A stretch of 64,000 nucleotides of DNA from Thiomicrospira cyclica ALM1 (GTDB lineage Bacteria; Pseudomonadota; Gammaproteobacteria; Thiomicrospirales; Thiomicrospiraceae). This document shows, in pieces, positions 13,391 to 63,833 of this stretch (position 1 is its first letter; every line of letters begins with the position of its first letter). Location: assembly GCF_000214825.1 (NCBI RefSeq), contig NC_015581.1:1736001-1800000 (forward strand). Direction: 5' to 3'. The translations under genes and the position numbers were made by a program. The notes beneath the pieces are model-generated. The model was not told the origin of the DNA, made no database searches, and was given only the letters and a program-made list of their open reading frames with translations.

Positions 13391-14290
13391 TTAAGCTGTT
13401 TTAGTTGATTGCTTGATGTGCTGTAGTGCCACCAACATCATATGCGGTACCGTGAGGGCCGCGAGACCAATAAATACCAGACGTAACACCAGGGCCTCGA
13501 TTGACAAGTCAGACCAATACCAGGCGAGCACACCTAGTAATAATAGGGTGGCCAAGGTGTATAGCACGAGCATTTTGGTTAATTTAGCATACTGCGCTTG
13601 ACCCGCGTGTTGATATATTCCCAATAAATGCCGCGGGCTATGAAGCAGACAAAAGTAAACAATAAAGTAGAGCAAGGGTGGCGCGCTGTACGCCAAAATT
13701 AATAACGCCGCTGATTCTGCCGCTGTCCGCCATTGTTTTTGAAACAGCGCAACCATGATAATTAGCAACATAATGCCTGCTAAAACGAACGGATCTATGG
13801 CTAGGGTATAAGCCAACGCTCCGCCACCTTCTCCAGAGAGATGACTAAATAGTCTGGCAACTTCTTCAGGGTGAAATCCAATGGGCATCAGCAGCAGCAG
13901 AACGCCAAGCCCAAGGCGTAGCGGTCGATTGAGCGATTGTTCCCAGTCGCCGGAGAAATGCCAAGCGCTAATGATTAAAAAGACCAGCAAACTTATGACT
14001 GGCATTACCCACCAAATGGCAACCACCGCCACGCTAATCAATAGATAGCCTATTGCAAATAAGGCTTTTTGACGCAAGGTGTTATGAATGCCAATTTGTT
14101 CGGCCAGCCATGGATCAAGGGCGCCATGCGGTAGCCCTAACGCAATAACCAATACGGCTAGCAGTGCTATTTGCCAGGTTATTGGTAGCAGGTCTGGTTG
14201 TAGCTTTAACAGGCCGGCAACTAGGAGTGCTACTAGCGTAAACCCAAAACTCTGCAGGCGATCGGCGTGCGTGTAAAAATGATTTGTCAT
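13391..14290 (-). CDS. blh: Brp/Blh-family beta-carotene 15,15'-dioxygenase
   Basis: A 299-residue integral membrane enzyme that would cleave beta-carotene into two retinal molecules for the rhodopsin. About eight hydrophobic helices are visible. His residues typical of this family appear in LGLPHGALDPWLAEQ (near 54), in ISAWHFSGDWEQ (near 118), in LLHSPRHLLGIYQHAG (near 217) and in VPHMMLVALQH near the end; these are the probable iron ligands. It follows crtY by 1 bp, so the two are likely coupled. Placement last in a rhodopsin-crtEIBY-blh set is the canonical order. Confidence 0.92.
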   Translation of the reverse strand: MTNHFYTHADRLQSFGFTLVALLVAGLLKLQPDLLPITWQIALLAVLVIALGLPHGALDPWLAEQIGIHNTLRQKALFAIGYLLISVAVVAIWWVMPVISLLVFLIISAWHFSGDWEQSLNRPLRLGLGVLLLLMPIGFHPEEVARLFSHLSGEGGGALAYTLAIDPFVLAGIMLLIIMVALFQKQWRTAAESAALLILAYSAPPLLYFIVYFCLLHSPRHLLGIYQHAGQAQYAKLTKMLVLYTLATLLLLGVLAWYWSDLSIEALVLRLVFIGLAALTVPHMMLVALQHIKQSTKTA

Positions 14291-14291
14291 G

Positions 14292-15446
14292 TTACCTTCT
14301 CAAAACCAGACAGATAAGTCCTTTTAAAAATGGCGTTTTTGGCAGGCTTATTATAATACTGACTAGATCAATAATGCTGGGTCGATCGTCCATGAATCGC
14401 AAAAAACGGATGGGGGCAACCCTGGCTAACAAGCGCTCGAAGATGATCGGACCCAGTTCAGGGTTCTGCTTGATAACCTGTAAAAAAATCCTATCCATAA
14501 ATGCTAATACCGGTGGCGTTGCCGGCTGTCCAACCAAACTGTTGCGCTGAATCATCGCATCAGCCGCTTGTTTTGCCCAGCGTTGTATCCGCAAAAACCC
14601 ATATCCTGAAGACGCCCGTAAAGCGCCCCCACCGATACCGGCATTGACATAGTTTTTAGCCGAAGGCGACATTGGGTTCGCGTCTTTAAACTGGGGCAGG
14701 CCCATTGGAAGCACGCCCATTTCTTGACGAATAATGTTGGCCTGCTGCCAGCCTTTTTGGGCAAGTAATGTATCTAGATACTTTGCAATGACTGCCGATT
14801 TAATGGGTTTATTGGAGAAAAAAGTGACCTCAACCAGTGTTCGCTCGGCGGAGATTGGCAAAATGTAATTAAAGCAAAATGCCTGTTCTGCAACACGCAT
14901 CTCGGTCATTAAATCCAAACTATCTTGCGCTATAAGCGGATCGATATCCGCGACTTCTAATCCCACAAAACATTGAAATAAGCTGGCCTGCATAAGGGTT
15001 TCCTTGCATGGCGGGCGCGTATCTACCACTTGACTTGCCAGATAATCCTGCTGAGGGGTGGTAATTCTCCACCCATCGCCATCGGGGCTAATGCTAAGAA
15101 CAGGAGTGCTGAGCTTGAGACTAATCTGATTGGTGGTGTCGAGCTGCGTCATGGCATAGCCATAGAAGTCAGCCGCTCGGACATAATGATAAGCGTAGCC
15201 TTTACAGGCTTGTGTTTGTATGGGTTTTGCGGCGGAACTAAATCGCCAATTTTGCCAAGACTGACTAATCAGGTGCTGATATGTGGATGGCTGTTTATCC
15301 CAAAAACACCAGCTTCGATCATCCTCGTAGCGGCTTCTCGAATCAAGAATAAGTGCTTGCCCTTGGAACCCTTGGTCAATCAGCTGATTTGTTAGCGATA
15401 AGCCAGCGCAGCCCCCGCCAATAATGATTAAGTCGAATTGTTGCAT
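14292..15446 (-). CDS. crtY: Lycopene beta-cyclase
   Basis: 384 residues, CrtY type. The N-terminal FAD/NAD-binding motif is LIIIGGGCAGLSLTNQL (residues 6-22), followed by SRYEDDRSWCFWDKQPS, a CrtY hallmark. The later segment LPMGLPQF then GIGGGALRASSGYGF is also typical. It cyclises both ends of lycopene to beta-carotene at the inner membrane. Its ATG overlaps the crtB stop as TAATG. It provides the substrate for Blh. Length is normal for the family (about 380). Confidence 0.93.
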   Translation of the reverse strand: MQQFDLIIIGGGCAGLSLTNQLIDQGFQGQALILDSRSRYEDDRSWCFWDKQPSTYQHLISQSWQNWRFSSAAKPIQTQACKGYAYHYVRAADFYGYAMTQLDTTNQISLKLSTPVLSISPDGDGWRITTPQQDYLASQVVDTRPPCKETLMQASLFQCFVGLEVADIDPLIAQDSLDLMTEMRVAEQAFCFNYILPISAERTLVEVTFFSNKPIKSAVIAKYLDTLLAQKGWQQANIIRQEMGVLPMGLPQFKDANPMSPSAKNYVNAGIGGGALRASSGYGFLRIQRWAKQAADAMIQRNSLVGQPATPPVLAFMDRIFLQVIKQNPELGPIIFERLLARVAPIRFLRFMDDRPSIIDLVSIIISLPKTPFLKGLICLVLRR

Positions 15447-16318
15447 TACGTATTTTTGATAAACTTTGGCTGTTTTTTAATAGCATAACGGCTAATCGCG
15501 TCAAAGGCACAGCCTATTTTTTTTAGCCATGATACTTTGGCACGAAAGCGCCACGCTTGATAGTCAGCTTTTTTGATCTCTTCACCAATTTCGCGGTATA
15601 CACTGGCGGCCACTAAAATGCCATAAGCCGCCCGCCCTGGCAAATAAGGTAGCCCGAGTAAACCCCTTTGATAGTAGTTATCGGCGAGATCAAGAAGTTT
15701 TTTAGTCGCTTGTTGCAGACACAATTGTTGGTCCTGGTTCGGATTGAGTATTTGCTCAGGCGACATTGTGCCAATCCAGTCAGCCGGAAAATACACTCGA
15801 TTATTTTGGGCGTCCTCGGCCAGGTCTCGTGCAATATTTGTTAGCTGCATAGCAATGCCTAAATCAATGGCATAGGGGTGCGCTTCGGGGTCGCTAACAT
15901 CAAGGGCTTCGCACATCATTAGTCCAACCGTGCCGGCGACCTGATAGGCATAGTGTTGTAATTCTGATTGATTTTGCACACGTACATCTTCCAGATCTGA
16001 CGCGACCCCATTGATTAAATCTAAGAGCGGGGCTTCAATAGCCATGTCTCGGCATAATTCAGTAGCTTGATAAGCGAGCCGGTCGATAGGTTGCTGTTGC
16101 AATATAGACTGTTTTAACGCGTGTAATGCTGTTTTCGCATACCGCTGGTCTTGCGCTTCATCTGCGAGGTCATCGATTTGACGGCAAACGGCATAAAGGC
16201 GTGCGGCACGATTACGATGTCTTTTAGATAGCAAATGACTGGCAAAATAAAAGCTACGCCCGTGTGATCGTAATATCGCCAGAGCGTCTATGTGTTGATT
16301 GGTAACAATAGGGCTCAT
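15446..16318 (-). CDS. crtB: Phytoene synthase
   Basis: 290 residues. Both Asp-rich prenyl-binding motifs are present: YAVCRQIDDLADEAQD near residue 42 and LTNIARDLAEDAQNNRVYFP near 160. It joins two geranylgeranyl diphosphates to phytoene. Start and stop overlap its neighbours by TAATG on each side (crtI upstream, crtY downstream), which shows tight coupling. No unusual features. Confidence 0.95.
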   Translation of the reverse strand: MSPIVTNQHIDALAILRSHGRSFYFASHLLSKRHRNRAARLYAVCRQIDDLADEAQDQRYAKTALHALKQSILQQQPIDRLAYQATELCRDMAIEAPLLDLINGVASDLEDVRVQNQSELQHYAYQVAGTVGLMMCEALDVSDPEAHPYAIDLGIAMQLTNIARDLAEDAQNNRVYFPADWIGTMSPEQILNPNQDQQLCLQQATKKLLDLADNYYQRGLLGLPYLPGRAAYGILVAASVYREIGEEIKKADYQAWRFRAKVSWLKKIGCAFDAISRYAIKKQPKFIKNT

Positions 16319-17802
16319 TAGCCGGCCTCTGGCAGTAAGTGCTCAAGGACTTTCGCCGACGTAATGACGCCAGGCAGGCCTGCGCCTGGGTGCGTTCCCG
16401 CGCCCACAAGAAGGAGGTTGCTTGGCCCTTCACCCCGATTGTGGAATCGAAACCATGCTGATTGTGTAAACAAAGGCGATATCGAAAAACCCGCCCCTTC
16501 AGGTGAAAAGTAGTCTTTTGCAAAGTCTTGTGGCGTCATAAAAAACTGATCTGCAATGTGCGCTGTTAGATTTGGCAGAATGCTCGCTCCCAATGCTTCA
16601 ACAATTCGATCAGCTAGTATAGGACCTTCTTGCGACCAATCCTGTTGTCCCTGTAGGTTAGGTACTGGCACCAACGCATAAAAGCTATCGTGACCTTCTG
16701 GCGCAAAAGTTGGATCGGTGGCCGTTGGTCGGTGCAAGTAAATTGAGAAGTCATCGGCTAAAATTTTACGATTAAAAATATCATCTAATAATGCTTCGTA
16801 ACGCGGTCCCATCCAAATTGTATGATGCGCCACCTCTGGATACTGACGATCGGTACCAAAGAATAAAACAAAGAGCCCCATTGATTTTTTACTGTGTTTG
16901 GCTTTCAGCTTAGCTAACCAGCTCACTTTTTTTGCTGGCACCAGCTCTTGATAGAGATAGGCTGGATCGGTATTAGAAATTATCCAGTCGGCGTGCTGCT
17001 GAGTCTGGTTACCCCACTTATCCATCAGCGCGACTGATTCGACCTTTTGATCATTAAAATTTAATGCCGTAACTGTGCTATTTAGTTTTACTTCAATGCC
17101 TTGACGGGTCATCAAATCGGCCAGTGCATCTACCAGAGCGCCAGTACCGCCCATCGCAAAATGCACCCCATGCGCTTGTTCTAAAAAATGAATCAATCCA
17201 TAAATACTGGTGGTATCAAATGGATTACCGCCGACAAGTAAGGGTTGAATAGAAAAGGCTTGGCGTAAATAATCATTTTTAAGATGACGACAAACCATTT
17301 GCCAGACACTGCGCCAAGCGCCCAAGCGTGCAAGATGTGGGACCTGTGCTAGCATCACGCCAAGACGATGAAACGGTTGATCACCTAGCTGGGTATAGCC
17401 AACGTCATAGAGTTTTTTTGAATGGACAAGTAATCGCTGGTAACCATCGACGTCTTGAGGATTAATTCTGTTGATCTCTGCAAGCGTATCCTCCATCGTG
17501 CCACCGTAATTAAAATGTTCGCCGTCGGCAAACTCAAAGCGATACCAAGGCTTGAGGGCAACAAGCTTTACATGATCTTCCAGCCGCTCTCCGAACAGAC
17601 TAAACAGTTCTTCTAGAAGAAATGGTGCCGTGATTACCGTTGGGCCGGCATCATGTTTATAACCATTACGCTCAAATACCTGTGCACGTCCGCCTAGACG
17701 TGTACACCGGTCGACTAAGGTGACTTCGTGTCCTTTTGCGCGAGCACGTAGTGCTGCGGCCATACCGCCAAAACCACCACCAATAACGATAACCTTGCTC
17801 AC
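16318..17802 (-). CDS. crtI: Phytoene desaturase (lycopene-forming)
   Basis: 494 residues starting with GTG at 17802. The N-terminus is the Rossmann motif VIVIGGGFGGMAAALRARA, then VTLVDRCTRLGGRAQVFERN. The C-terminal motif GPSNLLLVGAGTHPGAGLPG is the CrtI bacterial-type signature. The enzyme introduces four double bases into phytoene to make lycopene, with FAD, at the membrane. The start overlaps the crtE stop (GTGA). Neurosporene-forming homologues exist, but a downstream crtY and blh point to lycopene. A CAGGCCTG copy (16375) encodes part of the GAGLPG motif. Confidence 0.94.
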   Translation of the reverse strand: MSKVIVIGGGFGGMAAALRARAKGHEVTLVDRCTRLGGRAQVFERNGYKHDAGPTVITAPFLLEELFSLFGERLEDHVKLVALKPWYRFEFADGEHFNYGGTMEDTLAEINRINPQDVDGYQRLLVHSKKLYDVGYTQLGDQPFHRLGVMLAQVPHLARLGAWRSVWQMVCRHLKNDYLRQAFSIQPLLVGGNPFDTTSIYGLIHFLEQAHGVHFAMGGTGALVDALADLMTRQGIEVKLNSTVTALNFNDQKVESVALMDKWGNQTQQHADWIISNTDPAYLYQELVPAKKVSWLAKLKAKHSKKSMGLFVLFFGTDRQYPEVAHHTIWMGPRYEALLDDIFNRKILADDFSIYLHRPTATDPTFAPEGHDSFYALVPVPNLQGQQDWSQEGPILADRIVEALGASILPNLTAHIADQFFMTPQDFAKDYFSPEGAGFSISPLFTQSAWFRFHNRGEGPSNLLLVGAGTHPGAGLPGVITSAKVLEHLLPEAG

Positions 17803-18689
17803 GCTTGCATTGCCTCTTGTGAAGTATAGGGGCTTAATGCCATGCTAAGTTGATGACACATATCCGCCAGAAGCTGACCACTGTTATTGGGTAATGCCTG
17901 ACTTTGCTCTAAGGCTTTTTGAATATAAAACTCAACAAGCATGACTGCTTGGAGTTCTGCACTTGGCCGGCTCAAACCAGAGGCTTCAAGCACATAAACA
18001 ATATTACAGCTGCTGTTGATAAGGTCTTTGCGTTGATCCTGAAGATCATCAAAAATTTGATAGGCCAAAGCAAAGGATTCTCCTGCTTGCCTTGCCGCTA
18101 AGAGTGACGCATGATTGCTAGAAGCAATCATAGTGAGTTCGAGGGGGAGCGCCATCAAGCTTCCCGATTTTTGAATGGCTATTTTTAAGTACTGATCCAA
18201 ACTTGACTGTTGATTATCATGGTTTAAATCTAACACCTGACCTGAAATAAGCTGTGCTGTTCGGTCATGCATATGCTGCACCAATTCAGCCGTTGCTGTT
18301 CTAACTTCTGTAACAGCGGCATAGGCGGCAGACAACATTAACGTACCGGCACACATGGCATCATTAACACTAAAACGATACCAAGCCGCTTCGCGACCAC
18401 GACGATGTGTATCGCCATCTTGAATATCATCGTGAAGAAGTGATGCGTTGTGAATCATTTCACAAGCCGCAGCAATAGCCAATGTATCCTTTTTAGCAAG
18501 ATTAACAGCACAACCGGAATAGAGCGCTAATTTTGCTCGATTACGGCCACCGCCACTTGCCAGATGGTATGTAAATAATTCGTTAAGAATAGGGTTATCA
18601 AGCTTATTGAACTGTTGATGTATAGTAACTTCACATTCTTTTAAGAGACCTTGGAACTGAATCGAAATAGAATCTTCATGCGTATTCAT
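17799..18689 (-). CDS. crtE: Geranylgeranyl diphosphate synthase
   Basis: 296 residues from the ATG at 18689, chosen because AGGAGGTTGTG sits 4-5 bp upstream; the open frame reaches 18713. First Asp-rich motif is LLHDDIQDGDTHRRG, second is YQIFDDLQDQRKD; together they define a trans-prenyltransferase. It makes the C20 precursor for phytoene. The four-residue DDIQD rather than DDxxxxD first motif suits the CrtE group. It lies 83 bp after the rhodopsin gene, the largest gap inside the operon, so a promoter or processing site there is possible. Confidence 0.93.
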   Translation of the reverse strand: MNTHEDSISIQFQGLLKECEVTIHQQFNKLDNPILNELFTYHLASGGGRNRAKLALYSGCAVNLAKKDTLAIAAACEMIHNASLLHDDIQDGDTHRRGREAAWYRFSVNDAMCAGTLMLSAAYAAVTEVRTATAELVQHMHDRTAQLISGQVLDLNHDNQQSSLDQYLKIAIQKSGSLMALPLELTMIASSNHASLLAARQAGESFALAYQIFDDLQDQRKDLINSSCNIVYVLEASGLSRPSAELQAVMLVEFYIQKALEQSQALPNNSGQLLADMCHQLSMALSPYTSQEAMQA

Positions 18690-18771
18690 GTCACAACCTC
18701 CTAAAAATCCCAAGCCAGTTATTTTGGCCTGGGATTCTATTCACTATTTCACCTTGAATACTTCCAAGATA

Positions 18772-19521
18772 TTAAGCTTTTTCATTTTGTGATTTGCGAA
18801 CAGCAATCATGAAGATAATTACACCAAAGACTACTTTAGCAACAAGGTCAGCAACGGTATAACCTACTTCTATTACAGTTTGCGCTTGACCACCATCTAA
18901 TGACATTACGAATGGCGCAAAGTAAACAACTGGATAGAAACTCCATGACAAGACCAGAATCCACCGTGCTGTATTTAGTAAGCCACGAACGTTTTCATGC
19001 TGTCTTGCAATCGATTCCGATAGACCAATAAACAATGTATACACAATGTATAGGAATGGAATCATGGATAGCGCGCCCCACAACAGACGAGTTGAGTCGA
19101 TGCCACCAGATACTTCACCTGGATAGCCCAACGCAATCATTAATGCTGCCGCACCACCTAGTAAGATAGCTTTACGGACTGTTTCAGAACGCGTCAAGCT
19201 CATAACTAAAATCAGTTCAATCAATAGCAATGGCACAGTTAAAAACCAATCAACGTAACGATAAGCAACGTTAAATGCCACACCGGTTGATGTAACAACA
19301 CCGTCTACAGCTGTATAGGCATCGCCCCAGCTATCGAACATGCGCAAATAATGGTAACCAGCAATAAAGGTTACCAACCCAGTAACAACAACCGCCATTT
19401 TGTATTTGTCAGATACTTGTGACAGGCCTAGCCAGAAAAATAGTGTTGCAGCTAAAAAAGCGGCAATACCCAGCGAGAAGGCGTTATAGACCAACTCATA
19501 CTGTCCAAATGTTAATTCCAT
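18772..19521 (-). CDS. Proteorhodopsin/xanthorhodopsin-type proton pump
   Basis: 249 residues from the ATG at 19521; a GGAGGTTGTC ribosome site fixes this start, although the frame opens at a TTG at 19533. Seven membrane helices. Helix C reads YVDWFLTVPLLLIELI, giving Asp91, Thr95 and Glu102, the DTE motif of outward proton pumps. Leu99 is at the spectral-tuning position (Leu105 of green proteorhodopsin), so green absorption is expected. His57 is the conserved helix-B partner and Lys229 (VADLVAKVVFG) binds retinal. Trp148-Gly149 in helix E has Gly where bacteriorhodopsin has Trp138; this is the fenestration that lets xanthorhodopsin bind a carotenoid antenna. First gene of the retinal operon. 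Confidence 0.95.
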   Translation of the reverse strand: MELTFGQYELVYNAFSLGIAAFLAATLFFWLGLSQVSDKYKMAVVVTGLVTFIAGYHYLRMFDSWGDAYTAVDGVVTSTGVAFNVAYRYVDWFLTVPLLLIELILVMSLTRSETVRKAILLGGAAALMIALGYPGEVSGGIDSTRLLWGALSMIPFLYIVYTLFIGLSESIARQHENVRGLLNTARWILVLSWSFYPVVYFAPFVMSLDGGQAQTVIEVGYTVADLVAKVVFGVIIFMIAVRKSQNEKA

Positions 19522-19589
19522 GACAACCTCCAAATCATCAATTGATAAGCTTTATATTTATAGATCTTATAGCAACGGTTAAAACGACC

Positions 19590-57338: not shown

Positions 57339-57878
57339 TTAGTTCGGCATTACCGACGAGTGATGATGAAGTATCTTCCAACGCCCTGCATGAAACGCAT
57401 ATACAAAAGTATAGCGTGCTTTAACAACCTTGCGCTTAACCCCCTCACCACCGACTGTAAACTCGTAGACCCCAGCATCGGTCAGTTTATTACAGCCTTT
57501 ACGCACTATGCGTTGTAACACCCTAGCCGATGGTTGCTTTAGCAAAAAGTGTTTAAAGTAGGCTTCAATTTCAGCTAATCCCGAACGCGGCAGGTTTGAA
57601 ACCGTAGGTAAGAGCACCGCGTCATCTGAATAAAGAGAGGCTACATAACGAGCATCACCTGATGCCAAGGCTTCGTTCCATAGAGTAAATAATTGTTCGG
57701 CAAGAGCTTCATCAACCGGCGCACAGTAGTTTACCTCTTGCGCCGATGGTGTATCAAATGGCTGTTGAAGCGTTGGAAGTCTCGGACGTGTCACATGACG
57801 CAATGAGTTATCAAGACTTACACTCGAATGGCGCATATACTCGATACCTGTTGTGCCAGTAATACGACTATTACCCAT
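57339..57878 (-). CDS. SnoaL/DUF4440-fold protein with N-terminal ITG motif, paralog 1
   Basis: 179 residues. Residues 1-50 are a low-complexity, Ser/Arg/Pro-rich tail containing SRITGTTGIEYMRHSSVSLD. The rest is a SnoaL-like (CaMKII association/DUF4440) domain: LFTLWNEALASGDARYVASL, then VLLPTVSNLPRSGLAEI and YTFVYAFHAGRWKILHHHSS. It is about half identical to the protein at 59275. It is last in the CO2-concentrating block, next to CsoS1D. The ITG motif resembles the (V/I)TG elements of CsoS2 repeats, which bind shell proteins. No enzymatic role is known; a carboxysome cargo or linker role is inferred. Confidence 0.7.
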   Translation of the reverse strand: MGNSRITGTTGIEYMRHSSVSLDNSLRHVTRPRLPTLQQPFDTPSAQEVNYCAPVDEALAEQLFTLWNEALASGDARYVASLYSDDAVLLPTVSNLPRSGLAEIEAYFKHFLLKQPSARVLQRIVRKGCNKLTDAGVYEFTVGGEGVKRKVVKARYTFVYAFHAGRWKILHHHSSVMPN

Positions 57879-57904
57879 TTTAGTACTCGCCTTTAGCGTT
57901 CATA

Positions 57905-58531
57905 TTAAACACGCACATCTTGTCCGGTTAAACTCTGAATAGCTTTAGTTGCCGCTTCTGCCGCCACATTAATATCCGCCTCTCGCCCTGCCATAATTAA
58001 ACGACCATAAGCACCAACGGCCCGCGCTTCAATAAGGGTGATGTTAGACGCCTTTTCAGCCTCATTGGCCGCATACACAATGTAGCCAGCGGGTTCTGTT
58101 TCTAAAATATACATACTTTGGCCAGGTAAAATCATCGAACCACGTCGGTTATCTCGGTTAATCAATACCGCATGATCCGGCGTAATGGCACGAATAATTT
58201 CATTCCACATAATATGACATTTCTGTCGGGAAGACTCTTCTGTTTGTAAGTAATTTAAAACTTTTTGACCTGACTCAAGTACATCGCTCTGATCACGGTG
58301 ATGAAGGAACATTGAACCATATGAACGTTCAACAATTTGTTGCCCCAAATGTACGTTTGAACCCTTTAACGCAATATCCGTTAAACGATGGACAGCCATA
58401 CCCGGTGCTACTTCCATCCACACACAAGCATCACCTGGTACAGGCAAAAAGCCCTGTGATGCCGTACCCATGTAGGATGCGATTTGTGGCTGCAATGAGT
58501 TGATAAAAATGTAGGTTCTAAGTTTAATCAT
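57905..58531 (-). CDS. csoS1D: Carboxysome shell pseudotrimer CsoS1D
   Basis: 208 residues with two tandem bacterial-microcompartment domains. Conserved segments [60 protein letters not shown] and [20 protein letters not shown] match CsoS1D. The protein forms stacked trimers with a large gated pore in the alpha-carboxysome shell, thought to pass RuBP and 3-PGA. The pore residues (EPAGY region) are kept. The rest of the cso operon is not in this window. It starts 22 bp after the Ham1-like gene. Confidence 0.94.
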
Positions 58532-58553
58532 ATAAAGTTTTTCGGGCGCCCTT

Positions 58554-59270
58554 CTACGGTCTTGTATTTACAATCTGTGGCACCAACGCATTAAATGCTT
58601 CAAGGCGATTGCTTAAGGTTTGCTTCTGTTCAAAATTAAGTAAGGCTGCCGTCATACCAAATTCTGGCACATAAAATACGGCATCATAACCATAACCGCT
58701 ATCACCCTCTATGCGGTCATGTAAATAGCCGGCCCACTCCCGTGTGACAATTATCGGTAAAGGATCGGCGGCATGGCGCATAAAAACAACGGTCGATATA
58801 TAACTTGCTCGACGTTCTTCACCCTTAAAAGGCTCTGCTAACGCTAACAACTTCTCACAATTTTGTTGGTCTGTTGCACCCTGACCAGCAAACCTAGCCG
58901 AAAAAAGTCCGGGCAGCTGGCCTAATGCTGGAACAAATAAGCCTGAATCATCACCAATAGCCGGTAAACCGGTTTGCTCGCAAGCATATCGGGCTTTCAA
59001 AATAGCATTTTCAATTAAAGTACCACCCGTTTCCTCGATAGGATCAATCGCAAACTCTGATTGCATCATCAAGGTTACTTCAGCAAAACAAGGCATGACC
59101 TCAGCGGCCTTATTTAAATTACCTGTTGCCAAAACCACTTTAGGCTTTACCAATTTGGCAGCACTACTTTGACTCACGCCATCAGCCTGTTTGCGTGCAA
59201 CCGGCTTATTGCGACTATAGGACAGAGGCTTTGGTCGTTTTACAGCTTGTTGTGGTCGTAGTCTTGGCAC
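58554..59270 (-). CDS. Ham1/RdgB-like NTP pyrophosphatase with basic N-terminal extension
   Basis: 238 residues. About 43 residues of basic tail ([27 protein letters not shown]) precede the normal start [20 protein letters not shown]. The catalytic motif follows with [21 protein letters not shown] and [19 protein letters not shown]. Family members hydrolyse ITP/XTP and other noncanonical purines. Ham1-like genes accompany csoS1D in cyanobacterial alpha-carboxysome loci, as here. The extension is not typical of RdgB and could direct it to the carboxysome. It lies 4 bp after paralog 2. Confidence 0.85.
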
Positions 59271-59274
59271 AGCT

Positions 59275-59823
59275 TTACTCTGGCATCATGGATGAATGAT
59301 GATGAATAATTTTCCAGTCACCGTTGCGGTGTTCATAAACAAAGGTATAACGCGCATTAACTTCTTGCGTTTGACCATTACTTGTTAACTTGAACACATA
59401 CACACCAGCGTCAGTTAGCTTATTACAGCCCTTCTTAACATTCCGTTGCTTAATGATGCCAACTGGCTGCTTTTCGAGAAAATGATTAAAGTAATCAATA
59501 ATTTCATTACGCGATGTGCGTGGCACATTAGAAACAGTCGGTAACAAAATAGCGTCATCAGCATAAAGGTCCGCAACATTGGACGCCTTACCAGTTTGCA
59601 AAGCCGCATTCCACTTATCAAATAAACTGGCCGCTAACTTTTCATCGGCTGGTTCGCAGTAACAACTTTCCGAAGATACCGGTGTATCAATAGGACGACG
59701 AGAAACGCCCGAACCTGTAATCGCTTGATAAGGCGTGCGTAGCGAGTTACTTAAACTTACTCCCGCGGCTTGTGAGTGATCAATTCCGGAAGTTCCGGTA
59801 ATTTGAAATGAGGTTGATTTCAT
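59275..59823 (-). CDS. SnoaL/DUF4440-fold protein with two N-terminal ITG motifs, paralog 2
   Basis: 182 residues. The N-terminal tail has two ITG elements, QITGTSGIDHSQAAGVSLSN and AITGSGVSRRPIDT. The SnoaL-like domain starts about residue 58 and ends YTFVYEHRNGDWKIIHHHSS, as in paralog 1. VKKGCNKLTDAGVYVF is shared by both. It is the first gene after the LysR regulator, just before the Ham1-like gene. Together with the other paralog it brackets ham1 and csoS1D, suggesting a common role in the carboxysome. Not a known named family member; function unknown. Confidence 0.72.
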   Translation of the reverse strand: MKSTSFQITGTSGIDHSQAAGVSLSNSLRTPYQAITGSGVSRRPIDTPVSSESCYCEPADEKLAASLFDKWNAALQTGKASNVADLYADDAILLPTVSNVPRTSRNEIIDYFNHFLEKQPVGIIKQRNVKKGCNKLTDAGVYVFKLTSNGQTQEVNARYTFVYEHRNGDWKIIHHHSSMMPE

Positions 59824-59882: not shown

Positions 59883-60881
59883 TTACTGCTTCACACTTGA
59901 TGCACTTTCTGAGGCATCGACACTGGTTTGGAAATACTCCGCCCCCTTCTCAAGCAGAAAATCCAAAAACTTACTTGCCAGTATCGACATGGATTTACCA
60001 CTAGGATAAACAATATTCAGCTCTTTCTCTAACGGGAAACCCTCGACATCTAAAACAGCCAATGGCCCTTCCACACCCTCAAGATACAATGAATGCTTGG
60101 GCACAACAGAGATACCCAAGCCACCAAAAACGGCGTGCTTTATCGTTTCTGTACTCTCAAGCGTAAGACGCTCATTAACCCGCAAATGCTGTTCATTAAA
60201 ACGCTCTTCTACTGCAGAGCGTATACCCGAACCAAACTCACGCATCAAAATAGGTTCCTCAGCAATTCGTGACAGAGGAATATTCGCTTGACCAACCAAA
60301 GGATGATCTCGGTGAGCGATAAACACCAATGGGTTGGGAGCAAATGGAATAACTACCGCATCCAGAGAGCTAGGGGGTTTTTGCCCCATAATATACATAT
60401 CGTCAAGGTTATCCGCGATTCGATTTAAGATCGTTTCGCGGTTACATACCGTAAAACTCAAATCAATATTTGGATAGACCTTCGAAAACTCACCCAAAGC
60501 GAGAGGTAAAAAATATTTTGCGGTGGTTACCACTGCAATGCGTAATCGCCCCTTACGCATCCCTTTGAAATCATGCAAACGCATCTCAAGGTTTGCCAGT
60601 ACGTCCATAACCTCTCGACAAGCAATAGCAACTTCTTCACCAACCTCCGTGAGAAAAATATTGCGCCCAAGTTGCTCATACAATGGGGTATCAATAGAAT
60701 CTTGAAAGCTTTTTACCTGAGCCGACACCGTTGGCTGAGTTAGATGCAGCTCTTCTGCAGCACGAGTAAAACTTGCAAGGCGAGCCACCGCTTCAAACAC
60801 CTGAATTTGACGCAAAGTTAAATGACGAATCAAATAGTGATGCGTAATGATCGGGTTATCTAAATGGCTACTCGCACTCAT
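59883..60881 (-). CDS. LysR-family regulator (CbbR/CcmR-like)
   Basis: 332 residues. N-terminal helix-turn-helix (LTLRQIQVFEAVARLASFTR and AAEELHLTQPTVSAQVKSFQ) and a LysR substrate-binding domain (LRIAVVTTAKYFLPLALGEF then GIRSAVEERFNEQ). Its place between SbtB and the carboxysome genes, all on one strand, suggests a CO2-responsive activator such as CcmR or CbbR. Ligand not determinable. Confidence 0.9.
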   Translation of the reverse strand: MSASSHLDNPIITHHYLIRHLTLRQIQVFEAVARLASFTRAAEELHLTQPTVSAQVKSFQDSIDTPLYEQLGRNIFLTEVGEEVAIACREVMDVLANLEMRLHDFKGMRKGRLRIAVVTTAKYFLPLALGEFSKVYPNIDLSFTVCNRETILNRIADNLDDMYIMGQKPPSSLDAVVIPFAPNPLVFIAHRDHPLVGQANIPLSRIAEEPILMREFGSGIRSAVEERFNEQHLRVNERLTLESTETIKHAVFGGLGISVVPKHSLYLEGVEGPLAVLDVEGFPLEKELNIVYPSGKSMSILASKFLDFLLEKGAEYFQTSVDASESASSVKQ

Positions 60882-60897
60882 TTTAACTTATCAGCAA

Positions 60898-61218
60898 CTA
60901 TTTTGCAGCCGGACGGCATTTGTTGGGTGTATGTACCTCGGCATTTAAACTAAATACAAAATGATGGTAGCCCTTTTCAATATCACGATTGAGTTCGGCT
61001 ATTAAGGGATCGAACTTATCAGTGGATACCATCACCATAAACATAATGTTACTATCGGCGTCAAAATGCCCTGATTGCAACCCCGAATCCCCTTCACCAT
61101 TCACACTAAGATTGGTATAACTGCTAATAGCCAGTTTTTTAAAAATCTTTTTAATGCGTGAATCCAAGATGTTCGATGTAATAATTTGAACTAACTTTTG
61201 GTTACATAAATTATCCAT
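60898..61218 (-). CDS. sbtB: PII-like protein SbtB
   Basis: 106 residues. A GEGDSGLQSGHFDADSNIMF T-loop-like region and VMVSTDKFDPLIAELNRDI helix fit the PII-like SbtB family, which binds adenine nucleotides and inhibits SbtA. It ends VHTPNKCRPAAK. A good AGGAG lies upstream. It is 19 bp after sbtA. Sequence is short and divergent, so identity rests partly on the position beside sbtA. Confidence 0.82.
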   Translation of the reverse strand: MDNLCNQKLVQIITSNILDSRIKKIFKKLAISSYTNLSVNGEGDSGLQSGHFDADSNIMFMVMVSTDKFDPLIAELNRDIEKGYHHFVFSLNAEVHTPNKCRPAAK

Positions 61219-61237: not shown

Positions 61238-62227
61238 CTAGCCGATATACCAAACCGACAAGCTATAGAACAATGGAATGCCTACTAGCACGTTGAATGG
61301 GAAGGTAACACCTAAGGCCAGTGTTAAATAATAGGATGGGTTAGCTTCTGGCACCCCCATTCGCATGGCCGGTGGCACGGCAATATATGAAGCACTTGCT
61401 GCCAAAATTGCAACTAACATTGTTCCACCAGCGCTAAACCCAAGAATAGTCGCGCCAACAAAAATACCGATTAAACCACCAATCAATGGCATGATTATAC
61501 CAAAAGCGACGAGCGGAATACCGACCTGCTTGAAAGCCTTCATACGTCTAGCCGCTTCCATCCCCAAGTCAAGTAAGAAAAGACACAGTACACCCATAAA
61601 AATACCATGCGAGAAGGGGTATACTTTTTCCATGGCCTCTGGACTAGAAACCGCACCAATCACCATTGCACCAAGCAATAGTACAACACTACCATTTGTA
61701 GTCGCTTCATGTATCAAAGACTTCCAAGGTGTCGCAACTGCTTCACTGCCCGCGGCCTGCAATTTACTTCGTGCCATTGCAGCGAGCAATAGACCAATAA
61801 TAATGGCAGGCGCTTCCATAACCACCATCATGATAATCGGATAGGTTTCGTACTCAATACCAGACACATCCAAAAATGCAATCGCTGTTAAAAAGGTACC
61901 CGCGCTCACTGAGCCATAATGAGCCGTAATAGCCGCCGCATTAAACCGGTCTATGCGGTCTCTAAAACGCAAAATCATGTAGCCAATCATAGGGGTTAGG
62001 AAGCCTAACACCATAGCCCAAAAAATAGATTTAAACGCCAAACCAATCTCAGCGTTCGCTAACTCAGCACCGCCCTTAAGGCCTATTGCAATTAATAGGT
62101 AGATGGATAAGCCTTTGCCCAATCCATCAGGAAATTTCAAATCTGACTTAATAACTTTTGCAAAAACGCCTAGCGCGAAAAACAAAATAGCTGGAATTAA
62201 AATTGCATCTAAACCCATTGTAGACAC
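61238..62227 (-). CDS. sbtA: Sodium-dependent bicarbonate transporter SbtA
   Basis: 329 residues, ten membrane helices. Starts MSTMGLDAILIPAILFFALG, with YLLIAIGLKGGAELA and ITAHYGSVSAGTFLTAIAFL, which are SbtA hallmarks around the sodium and bicarbonate sites. It raises cytosolic bicarbonate for carboxysomes. It is followed by sbtB. Confidence 0.94.
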   Translation of the reverse strand: MSTMGLDAILIPAILFFALGVFAKVIKSDLKFPDGLGKGLSIYLLIAIGLKGGAELANAEIGLAFKSIFWAMVLGFLTPMIGYMILRFRDRIDRFNAAAITAHYGSVSAGTFLTAIAFLDVSGIEYETYPIIMMVVMEAPAIIIGLLLAAMARSKLQAAGSEAVATPWKSLIHEATTNGSVVLLLGAMVIGAVSSPEAMEKVYPFSHGIFMGVLCLFLLDLGMEAARRMKAFKQVGIPLVAFGIIMPLIGGLIGIFVGATILGFSAGGTMLVAILAASASYIAVPPAMRMGVPEANPSYYLTLALGVTFPFNVLVGIPLFYSLSVWYIG

Positions 62228-62345: not shown

Positions 62346-63665
62346 TTAATTAAGACCATCTTGCTCTTTAAATTTCTTAAGGTAGTTGCGGACAATATCA
62401 TGCGTACCGATGTTGTCCCGCTCTTTAAAAATAACAAAATTGATAAATGCGTGTATTGCTAGTGCAATCAACAGCCCTTCAAATATACCGACCCAGTAGA
62501 CCAGTAACCCACACAGAATGGCTAATAACATGGCATAACGTCCAAAATTAGCGACATGCAACAGGCCCAAAATCATTTTGATGCCAACAAATATCATGAT
62601 AATACCCAGAGCAAACTTGGGTAAAAACTCTAAATATTGAATGTTGATAACAAAGAAAGTGATCACAAGCGCTATAACTAAAACTGAAAACTTAGTAAAG
62701 GCACCTGCTAGTCGATTCGTTGAGCTCTTGGCAAGACCATCTAAGTTTGTCATGCCACCAAAAAAACTTGATCCCATATTCGAAACCCAAATAGACAGCA
62801 GGCTATTATTACTATTACATTTACGTTTCAGTGGATCTATTTTTTCAATCGCAGCATTGCTCATAACCTGCTCTATAACATCAATAATCGCCAACATAAG
62901 CGCAAAGCCAATCGCGTAAGCCCAAAGACTTACTGAGTTGAAATCTGGTATGGGTAAAGCAAGAGCAAGCTCGGCATCTTCAACCTGCAACATCGACAAG
63001 GGTAAAAACAAGGAAACTAAAATTCCGAATACAATAAGTGCAAAATAGGGTACCGCAGGCTGGCGATCCTTAAATAATTTAAACAACACCAAGAACAGTA
63101 TCGCACCAACCAATGATAAACCAATCATTAACAGACGCTCCGTTGTAAAAAAACCATCTGCGGTTACAACTGACTCTGGAACCTCATAGGTGAAAACCAA
63201 AAAGGCCAGGACAATTTTTAAACCAATACCCGCCAATAGACCCTCAACTAAATAGGTCGGCACTAACTGCAATATGTAACGCTGCCAATTGAACTTCCAT
63301 ATAAGAGCCTGGAATGCGGCCGTTAGGAATATGATAAATGCCATATTCGAAATACCGAATATCGATACCCCCATGGCCAAAATAGGTGCCAAGCCTGCTG
63401 CTATACCAGGCGCTCCAATAAAATTACCAGGGCGAAACCAAGCAAACATCCAACCAATAAATGAGGCGAAAGCAACTGTAGCAAGGCCTACCTGAATAGG
63501 ATAATCCGACATGATAGCAATACCGATAGACAAAGGTATTGCCATAGCAGCGGTAATAATACCGGCCTGAATATCACGTGTAACATATTGCTTCTGAAAA
63601 GCCGCACAGCTCTTAGTTTCGCACTGTACGTCCTGTGAGGAATTTGAATTTGCTGTGTTAGACAT
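62346..63665 (-). CDS. SulP-family bicarbonate transporter
   Basis: 439 residues from the ATG at 63665; the frame opens earlier at a GTG (63761) with no ribosome site. About ten to twelve helices follow, with RDIQAGIITAAMAIPLSIGI at the start and GAPGIAAGLAPILAMGVSIF. There is no visible STAS domain at the C-terminus, unlike many SulP proteins. SulP homologues move bicarbonate in related chemolithoautotrophs, and the neighbouring sbtA supports this. Sulfate is the alternative substrate. Confidence 0.83.
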   Translation of the reverse strand: MSNTANSNSSQDVQCETKSCAAFQKQYVTRDIQAGIITAAMAIPLSIGIAIMSDYPIQVGLATVAFASFIGWMFAWFRPGNFIGAPGIAAGLAPILAMGVSIFGISNMAFIIFLTAAFQALIWKFNWQRYILQLVPTYLVEGLLAGIGLKIVLAFLVFTYEVPESVVTADGFFTTERLLMIGLSLVGAILFLVLFKLFKDRQPAVPYFALIVFGILVSLFLPLSMLQVEDAELALALPIPDFNSVSLWAYAIGFALMLAIIDVIEQVMSNAAIEKIDPLKRKCNSNNSLLSIWVSNMGSSFFGGMTNLDGLAKSSTNRLAGAFTKFSVLVIALVITFFVINIQYLEFLPKFALGIIMIFVGIKMILGLLHVANFGRYAMLLAILCGLLVYWVGIFEGLLIALAIHAFINFVIFKERDNIGTHDIVRNYLKKFKEQDGLN

Positions 63666-63833
63666 AAAAAAATACTTTCGTTTAGGGCTCAATACAAGAT
63701 CCATCAAACCAATTAAGAACCTACGTTCTGCTGAAACGACATTAATCAAAGCTTTTGGCACAAAAGACTAATGAATAACAATTGCATTAAGAAACATAGA
63801 GGTACGACATCTTTTAAACATCCCTCTACTCAT

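Follow-up and report, generated by a model that had tools for sequence, protein, structure and literature searches.

What do two short genes beside the cso operon of Thiomicrospira cyclica ALM1 encode, and why do their products begin with a tail that carries ITG motifs? The genes lie in the window analyzed here, a stretch of 64,000 nucleotides corresponding to positions 1736001-1800000 of the one contig (NC_015581.1, 1,932,455 bases) that makes up the genome (RefSeq assembly GCF_000214825.1); they are near the cso locus, in a gene order that is repeated in related genomes. We call their products ICA1 and ICA2 (iota-carbonic anhydrases 1 and 2). To judge by their sequences, both are probably carbonic anhydrases (CAs) of the iota class, and the explanation that we favor, and hold to be probable with some reserve, is that they are iota-CAs of the alpha-carboxysome in which the tail serves as an address and docks on the shell. 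An initial annotation of this DNA had noted two proteins with disordered-looking N-termini containing ITGT, one on either side of a ham1 gene and a csoS1D gene; the open reading frames (ORFs), their motifs and, between the two genes, matches to Ham1p_like and BMC were all recovered, and the N-terminus of ICA1 has low confidence values in its predicted structure.

The same annotation had assigned a DUF4440 domain to both proteins. This match is genuine but secondary: the top Pfam match, above the cut-off, is CaMKII_AD (2.7e-20 for ICA1 and 3.4e-16 for ICA2), and the nearest relatives are iota-CA-like. An oxidoreductase function, as suggested by the NCBIfam label of both proteins (SgcJ/EcaC oxidoreductase) and by DUF4440, was rejected as a mere label in view of these relatives. 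The closest sequence of solved structure for ICA1 is 3h51 from Xanthomonas (E 2e-38), followed by the iota-CA 7c5x (E 1.3e-5), and a search of solved structures with the family profile gives 8e-46 and 2.8e-4, respectively. In the AlphaFold model of ICA1, to which the structural comparison applies, the ten-residue mean of the predicted local distance difference test (pLDDT) is 86 to 97 across residues 61-180, and the best structural match is again 3h51, with a Z-score of 20.5, a root-mean-square deviation of 1.5 over 122 residues and 54% identity. The iota-CAs 7c5x (Z 15.4) and 7c5v (Z 15.3) come next, with values that many other NTF2-like chains equal. The fold alone was rejected as proof of a CA, since NTF2 and ketosteroid isomerase chains also reach Z 15-16; the assignment draws instead on the closeness of the sequences, on the signature and on the context.

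The signature (H)HHSS of iota-CAs (PMC8425729) is present as HHHSS near the C-terminus of both proteins and is invariant across 28 aligned sequences. Equally invariant are Thr96 and Tyr111, which are equated, by spacing and not by residue-level structural alignment, with Thr106 and Tyr124 in the catalytic pocket of all2909 (PMC8132391). The activity of ICA1 and ICA2 is what we infer from the observed domain family, predicted fold and signature residues, and from the observed absence of CsoSCA.

ICA1 occupies the same place, in the order cbbR-iCA-ham1-csoS1D, in all eight sampled Thiomicrospira genomes that bear an iota-CA, and for this reason is likely the orthologue of the published carboxysomal iota-CA of the genus. 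Wieschollek 2024 (Wieschollek et al., AEM 90:e0107524) is reported to have found an active iota-CA in the carboxysomes of both T. pelophila and T. aerophila, and interruption of the iota-CA gene in T. pelophila is said to have abolished growth at low CO2. Three further papers name an iota-CA as the carboxysomal CA of Thiomicrospira, in place of CsoSCA (PMC12628692, PMC12918739 and, worded as 'might be', PMC12646314). The statement of the initial annotation that it knew of no role described for such proteins is thus not supported; the carboxysomal iota-CA as an enzyme is already known, and what is proposed here is the tail as an address label.

The distribution of these enzymes was followed in four overlapping samples, i.e., 62 genomes of the family, GTDB species, 369 genomes of the class and 398 genomes of the phylum; given this overlap, and the non-independence of related genomes, the P values of these comparisons are only a rough guide. 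A domain search of the source genome gave no match to CsoSCA_C (PF08936). In the family, CsoSCA occurs in 37 of the 62 genomes, all 37 of them CsoS2-positive. Among the 47 CsoS2-positive genomes, an iota-CA is present in 10/10 that lack CsoSCA (eight tailed, two fused to an FKBP domain) versus 15/37 that have it (P 7.6e-4), on account of which the iota-CA appears to replace CsoSCA where the latter has been lost, yet also occurs beside it. One metagenome-assembled genome (MAG) of the same genus (G057, 83% complete) is the reverse of its relatives, with CsoSCA present and an iota-CA not detected.

Residues 1-44 of ICA1 have pLDDT values below 50 in the AlphaFold model and are probably disordered. 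The two ITG motifs of this tail are more than shuffles of the same tail would commonly give (P ~0.015). In a collection of 55 tails, which includes a few duplicates, 48 contain two [IV][TS]G motifs and seven contain one, with a mean of 1.87 motifs per tail compared with 0.145 in shuffled tails, of which 0.8% reach at least two. After thinning for redundancy, the 39 remaining tails share, within variable surroundings, an invariant Ile and Gly of the first motif, the Ser of the next [VIL]S and the Asp of 'PIDT'. The pattern [IV][TS]G[TS].[GF][IL]...S within the first 80 residues selects 30 of 801 ORF-called genes (those of the window and 47 loci, not of a whole proteome), and all 30 encode tailed iota-CA proteins; a looser rule, which asks for two motifs within 55 residues, brings in some fragments of CsoS2 and two unrelated genes as well. 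A profile of the tail, searched against the source genome, found no matches beyond ICA1 and ICA2.

Tail and CsoS2 go together. An iota-CA relative is found in 25 of the 62 family genomes, and CsoS2 in all 25 of these versus 22 of the 37 without a relative (P 1.4e-4). In 23 of the 25 genomes the relative is tailed (27 genes), and all 23 are CsoS2-positive; the other two (G001 and G021) are CsoS2-positive as well, with an FKBP-like N-terminal domain instead of the tail. GTDB species were scanned with patterns drawn from the domain only, HHHSS[MV]MP and [KQ]GCNK[LI]TD, records of the source genome itself possibly being omitted. Of the 64 stretches returned, 47 encode a relative, 39 of them tailed (L075-L113; Thiomicrospira, Thiomicrorhabdus, Thioalkalivibrio, Guyparkeria, Methylonatrum, and MAGs including a Halothiobacillus) and eight untailed. 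The search for CsoS2 took 46 of these 47 loci, L098 sharing its assembly with L095, and found the protein in 36/38 genomes with a tailed versus 1/8 with an untailed relative, the single one being an FKBP fusion (L119) that matches G001 in the sequence read. In the class sample, 10 genomes have a tailed relative, nine of them CsoS2-positive, and strong untailed matches (E below 1e-20) occur in eight genomes, none of which has CsoS2; the association of tailed over untailed relatives with CsoS2 has P values of 5e-6 in the GTDB sample and 4e-4 in that of the class. With CsoS2 in 72 of the 369 class genomes and a tailed protein in 10, most carboxysome-bearing genomes of the class do without a tailed iota-CA. 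The phylum sample has strong untailed matches in 19 genomes, 0/19 CsoS2-positive, and informs little beyond the absence of the tail, because CsoS2 occurs in only two of its 398 genomes (the source genome and one without a match). Weaker NTF2-like matches (E above 1e-20; 14 class and 16 phylum genomes) were considered too distant and excluded before the tails were counted; among these genomes, G227 is CsoS2-positive.

The association is not one of mere linkage. Genes of the cso locus lie in the examined flank of 26 of the 39 tailed GTDB loci; the other 13 have none there, yet the tail is kept, and 11 of these 13 are in CsoS2-positive genomes (some flanks being short contigs), so that the tail does not simply travel with the locus. 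The interpretation of the initial annotation is accordingly supported in part. The tail does go with carboxysomes (23/23, 36/38 and 9/10 in the three samples), and these sequence comparisons lend good support to the suggestion that such tails may carry the domain into them; the binding to shell protein that the annotation had in mind is a putative one. The converse that it had set against itself, tailed homologues in genomes without carboxysomes, is nearly absent, with two exceptions taken up below.

Untailed relatives point in the same direction. The tail motif is absent from all 34 untailed homologues found in genomes without CsoS2 (seven GTDB, eight class and 19 phylum). Of these homologues, 27 have a hydrophobic, signal-like N-terminus (a Kyte-Doolittle mean of at least 2.0 over 12 residues, a simple rule and not a signal-peptide predictor); a further two nearly reach this value, and in three the N-terminal extension is almost lacking. 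On the same scale the 55 tails never exceed 0.9, and because of this difference the tail seems to have supplanted a secretory signal in the carboxysome lineage. Prokaryotic iota-CAs have predicted signal peptides, and COG4875 genes exist in marine Synechococcus, according to PMC8132391. In a tree of the domains, which omits L121 and most copies from the genome searches and carries a warning of long branches meeting, the tailed domains group together on a single branch (94/92 support, not starred). Two independent recruitments, of tailed and of FKBP-fused iota-CAs, were considered, as the tree separates them; a single clade is not rejected (p 0.306), and separate recruitment is not claimed.

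As for what the tail binds, the [IV]TG element of CsoS2 contacts His79 of CsoS1A (PMC10484944), and both CsoS1 proteins of the source locus have His79 and the DGLVAAH strand, a segment quoted in PMC10938918, at the same positions. A C-terminal stretch of CsoS2 can load foreign cargo (PMC10938918). Compared with the last CsoS2 fragment, the ICA1 tail is equalled by 2/300 shuffles, and it is one of 21 of the 55 tails that beat at least 95% of theirs. By eye, ITGSSGN...VTVSGGAR of CsoS2 can be set against ITGTSGI...VSLSNSLR of the tail, a register that hhalign also picks (P 0.16). Descent of the tail from the C-terminal peptide of CsoS2 was nevertheless discarded as a homology, being unsupported by the shuffle controls, and only an analogy of function is kept. 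From motif and distribution we infer that the tail may dock on the shell.

The mechanism would then be as follows. The folded domain (approximately residues 58-180), an NTF2-like cone, would convert HCO3- to CO2 for Rubisco and so stand in for the CsoSCA missing from the source genome. The disordered tail of 55-57 residues would be the carboxysome address, its [IV][ST]GT, in most cases joined by a second [IV]TG, taking the place of a signal-peptide-like N-terminus. By docking on the shell's inner face, at the His79-bearing strand of the CsoS1 hexamer and in the manner of the [IV]TG repeats of CsoS2, it would bring the enzyme into the carboxysome and keep it at the shell. The paralogue ICA2 shares the signature, has a one-motif tail and is probably a second copy of the cargo.

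Several observations weigh against this proposal. Two metal-free iota-CAs showed very low HCO3- dehydration in vitro (PMC8132391); the domain of ICA1 and ICA2 lies nearer to the other (COG4875) branch than to these. The likeness to CsoS2 beyond the motif is mixed for single tails and not significant for the profile: 34 of the 55 tails stay within their shuffles against the last CsoS2 fragment, a profile of the 39 tails does not match CsoS2 C-termini significantly (29/400 column shuffles as good, and 49/400 when limited to the last fragment), and in the profile comparison the reversed tail scores 11.3 against 13.0 for the tail itself. The single ITG motif of the ICA2 tail has P ~0.07 against shuffles, so that this tail by itself is weak evidence. 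The counts for tail and CsoS2 are inflated by shared ancestry, as the tailed domains are one branch, and two tailed genes, both from MAGs, are in genomes without detected CsoS2; one (L082) is from a small MAG whose counterpart in the class sample, G164, has the same tail, is the tenth tailed genome of that sample and has a BMC gene, and the other (L113), from a 5.1 Mb MAG that gave no BMC match, is on a contig of 3.6 kb. Moreover, FKBP-fused untailed iota-CAs occur in CsoS2-positive genomes, and the tail is hence not the sole carboxysome-associated N-terminus.

The two paralogues need not share a role: ICA1 alone may be the carboxysomal CA, with ICA2 drifted to become, e.g., a structural or regulatory NTF2-like subunit, although we regard this as rather unlikely. 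ICA2 is found in three of nine sampled Thiomicrospira genomes, each with two iota-CA matches (G000, the source, G053 and G060), a long branch (1.07 changes per column) leads to its group, and the copy in the window has a single motif; against drift, HHHSS and the pocket Thr and Tyr are kept in ICA2 of all three genomes, and its tail retains ITGT.GI and VSL.NSLR. ICA2 may or may not be a simple within-genus copy of ICA1: the likeness of the two tails speaks for it and the domain tree, where the long ICA2 branch stands among unlinked tailed proteins (89/97), against it.

The main rival for the tail itself, unlikely in our estimate, is that both proteins are carboxysomal iota-CAs but that the tail binds Rubisco, in the groove taken by the N-terminal repeats of CsoS2 and the N-terminus of CsoSCA, and not the shell. 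A further point against shell docking is that CsoSCA depends for its recruitment on Rubisco, to which it binds by an N-terminus that is just as disordered, is poorly conserved, suffices to load green fluorescent protein and has diverse Rubisco-binding motifs (PMC10614612). A disordered N-terminus therefore does not imply binding to the shell, and the Arg conserved in 35 of the 39 thinned tails would suit a Rubisco ligand. However, the tails are rich in the shell motif of CsoS2, [IV][ST]G, far above shuffles, and neither the Rubisco repeat of CsoS2 nor the KP-type stretch of some CsoSCA was seen in them by eye, no scan having been made. That the tail serves oligomerization, stability or regulation while the enzyme enters by its folded domain or stays in the cytosol is improbable, for despite the precedent of an HnCsoSCA-shell interaction without a defined peptide (PMC12646314) and a link between tail and CsoS2 that may in part be shared ancestry within one branch, the tail occupies the position of the signal peptide, is kept where the gene is away from the cso locus, and retains its motifs while its other residues drift.

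Shell docking by the tail being the reading favored, a broader one can be put forward tentatively and just short of probable: the [IV][ST]G tail could be a transferable shell-docking tag borrowed in function from CsoS2, with many alpha-carboxysomes holding two unrelated CAs, one Rubisco-bound and one shell-bound. Such a tag would serve the csoSCA-less Thiomicrospira as well as the csoSCA-bearing Thioalkalivibrio, Thiomicrorhabdus and others, where it would bring in a second CA of a different class; the prediction is that many carboxysomes equipped with CsoSCA contain a second CA as well.

The coordinates of the features and of the genes around them are collected in Table 1.

Table 1 Features of the iota-CA genes and their neighborhood, numbered from the first nucleotide of the window
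Feature	Position	Strand	Description
ICA1 (iota-carbonic anhydrase 1, name used here)	59275..59823	-	182 amino acids; ITG tail and NTF2-like iota-CA domain
ICA1 N-terminal tail, residues 1-57	59653..59823	-	proposed carboxysome address
ITG motif 1 of ICA1, residues 8-10	59794..59802	-	
ITG motif 2 of ICA1, residues 35-37	59713..59721	-	
HHHSS signature of ICA1, residues 174-178	59290..59304	-	
ICA2 (iota-carbonic anhydrase 2, name used here)	57339..57878	-	179 amino acids; paralogue of ICA1
ICA2 N-terminal tail, residues 1-55	57714..57878	-	single ITG motif, 57855-57863, residues 6-8
HHHSS signature of ICA2, residues 171-175	57354..57368	-	
ham1, RdgB/HAM1-type nucleoside triphosphate pyrophosphatase family, basic N-terminal extension	58554..59270	-	Ham1p_like 4.4e-46, residues 45-231
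csoS1D-type (CcmP-like) BMC shell protein	57905..58531	-	BMC 6.7e-9; CcmP model 8.2e-70, below cut-off
CbbR-type LysR regulator, upstream of ICA1	59883..60881	-	top NCBIfam match CbbR 5.7e-60, below cut-off
P-II-like protein adjoining SbtA	60898..61218	-	P-II 1.1e-10
SbtA-family bicarbonate transporter	61238..62227	-	Sbt_1 8e-112
SulP-family transporter	62346..63761	-	Sulfate_transp 1.4e-21

The cso operon begins just past the end of the window, on the same strand as the genes for ICA1 and ICA2, and comprises cbbL, cbbS, csoS2, a gene for a protein of 258 amino acids, csoS4A, csoS4B, two csoS1 genes, a ferritin-like gene (bfr) and an acRAF-like gene. The name of csoS2 is backed by a CsoS2_M match (1.7e-101) and those of the ferritin-like and acRAF-like genes by Pfam matches, the latter below the cut-off; the remaining names come from reading the sequences and from gene order. 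Elsewhere in the window (13391-19533) of this chemolithoautotroph are genes whose sequences read like those for a carotenoid pathway, for a beta-carotene dioxygenase and for a proton-pumping rhodopsin. The gene for the protein of 258 amino acids (csoSX in the literature; L003:9022-9798), directly outside the window and at the place of csoSCA, had no match in a Pfam search. Its product is 41-45% identical to its two closest relatives, compared with at least 89% for the single-domain shell genes, and its N-terminus, RAPNGRVIT, resembles those encoded at this place in other Thiomicrospira. CsoSX is described as retaining the N-terminal region of CsoSCA (PMC12918739).

The N-terminus of Ham1 (~43 residues) is basic and contains KP[LV][SA]YSRN in all three ICA2-bearing genomes. 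This stretch resembles 5/40 CsoSCA N-termini (PIPYSR, PIPYKR and similar; two of the five being copies of one genome), and a motif of this type, picked after being seen, matches 1/1278 other genes. Going by this resemblance, Ham1 may have taken over a targeting stretch of the CsoSCA type; the protein is present at low abundance in purified carboxysomes (PMC12918739).

In Thioalkalivibrio thiocyanoxidans ARh2 (L108), two iota-CA-like ORFs stand in tandem behind cbbR. The FKBP fusions have FKBP_C ahead of the iota-CA domain (L040:5702-6424, L041:12877-13569 and also L119), and neither csoSCA nor an ITG tail was found in the cso loci of the three. In L040, csoS4A was not detected and the csoS1 and acRAF genes are repeated, an arrangement reminiscent of the Thiomicrorhabdus aquaedulcis locus (PMC9164163). 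As no CA is named for that locus type in the part of PMC9164163 consulted, the FKBP-fused variant is a CA candidate for csoSCA-less loci of this kind.

Among the closest known systems, that of Wieschollek 2024 is alike in the genus, the csoSCA-less locus with csoSX and an iota-CA in the carboxysome locus; the second paralogue of three genomes, ICA2, may be a difference. In the open-licence PMC literature, as far as its texts were accessible, no description of an ITG tail on an iota-CA was found, Wieschollek 2024 lying outside that literature. SnoaL-like, DUF4440 and SgcJ/EcaC proteins belong to the same superfamily, but the nearest relatives of ICA1 and ICA2 are iota-CA-like. Periplasmic-type bacterial iota-CAs (COG4875, BteCA-iota; 3H51) share the fold, HHHSS and, for 3h51, the sequence identity given above; enzymes of this type carry a predicted signal peptide (PMC8132391), and ICA1 and ICA2 an ITG tail instead. 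The middle and C-terminal repeats of CsoS2 share [IV][TS]G with the tail, often followed by Thr, the CsoS2 of the source genome having 18 such motifs, whereas the tail is a short N-terminal stretch attached to an enzyme, with no significant profile likeness beyond the motif. CsoSCA (beta-type) is likewise a CA of the carboxysome whose N-terminus is disordered and serves in targeting, but it belongs to an unrelated family, is recruited through Rubisco (PMC10614612) and is absent from the source genome. The placement of CA in the alpha-carboxysome, bound to Rubisco or to the shell, is under debate, and the entry route of the iota type was not found stated in the accessible parts of the papers. 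A short natural tag that recurs across several genera of sulfur bacteria would offer a direct and cheap test of this placement, and the tail would join the C-terminus of CsoS2 and the N-terminus of CsoSCA as a natural loading tag.

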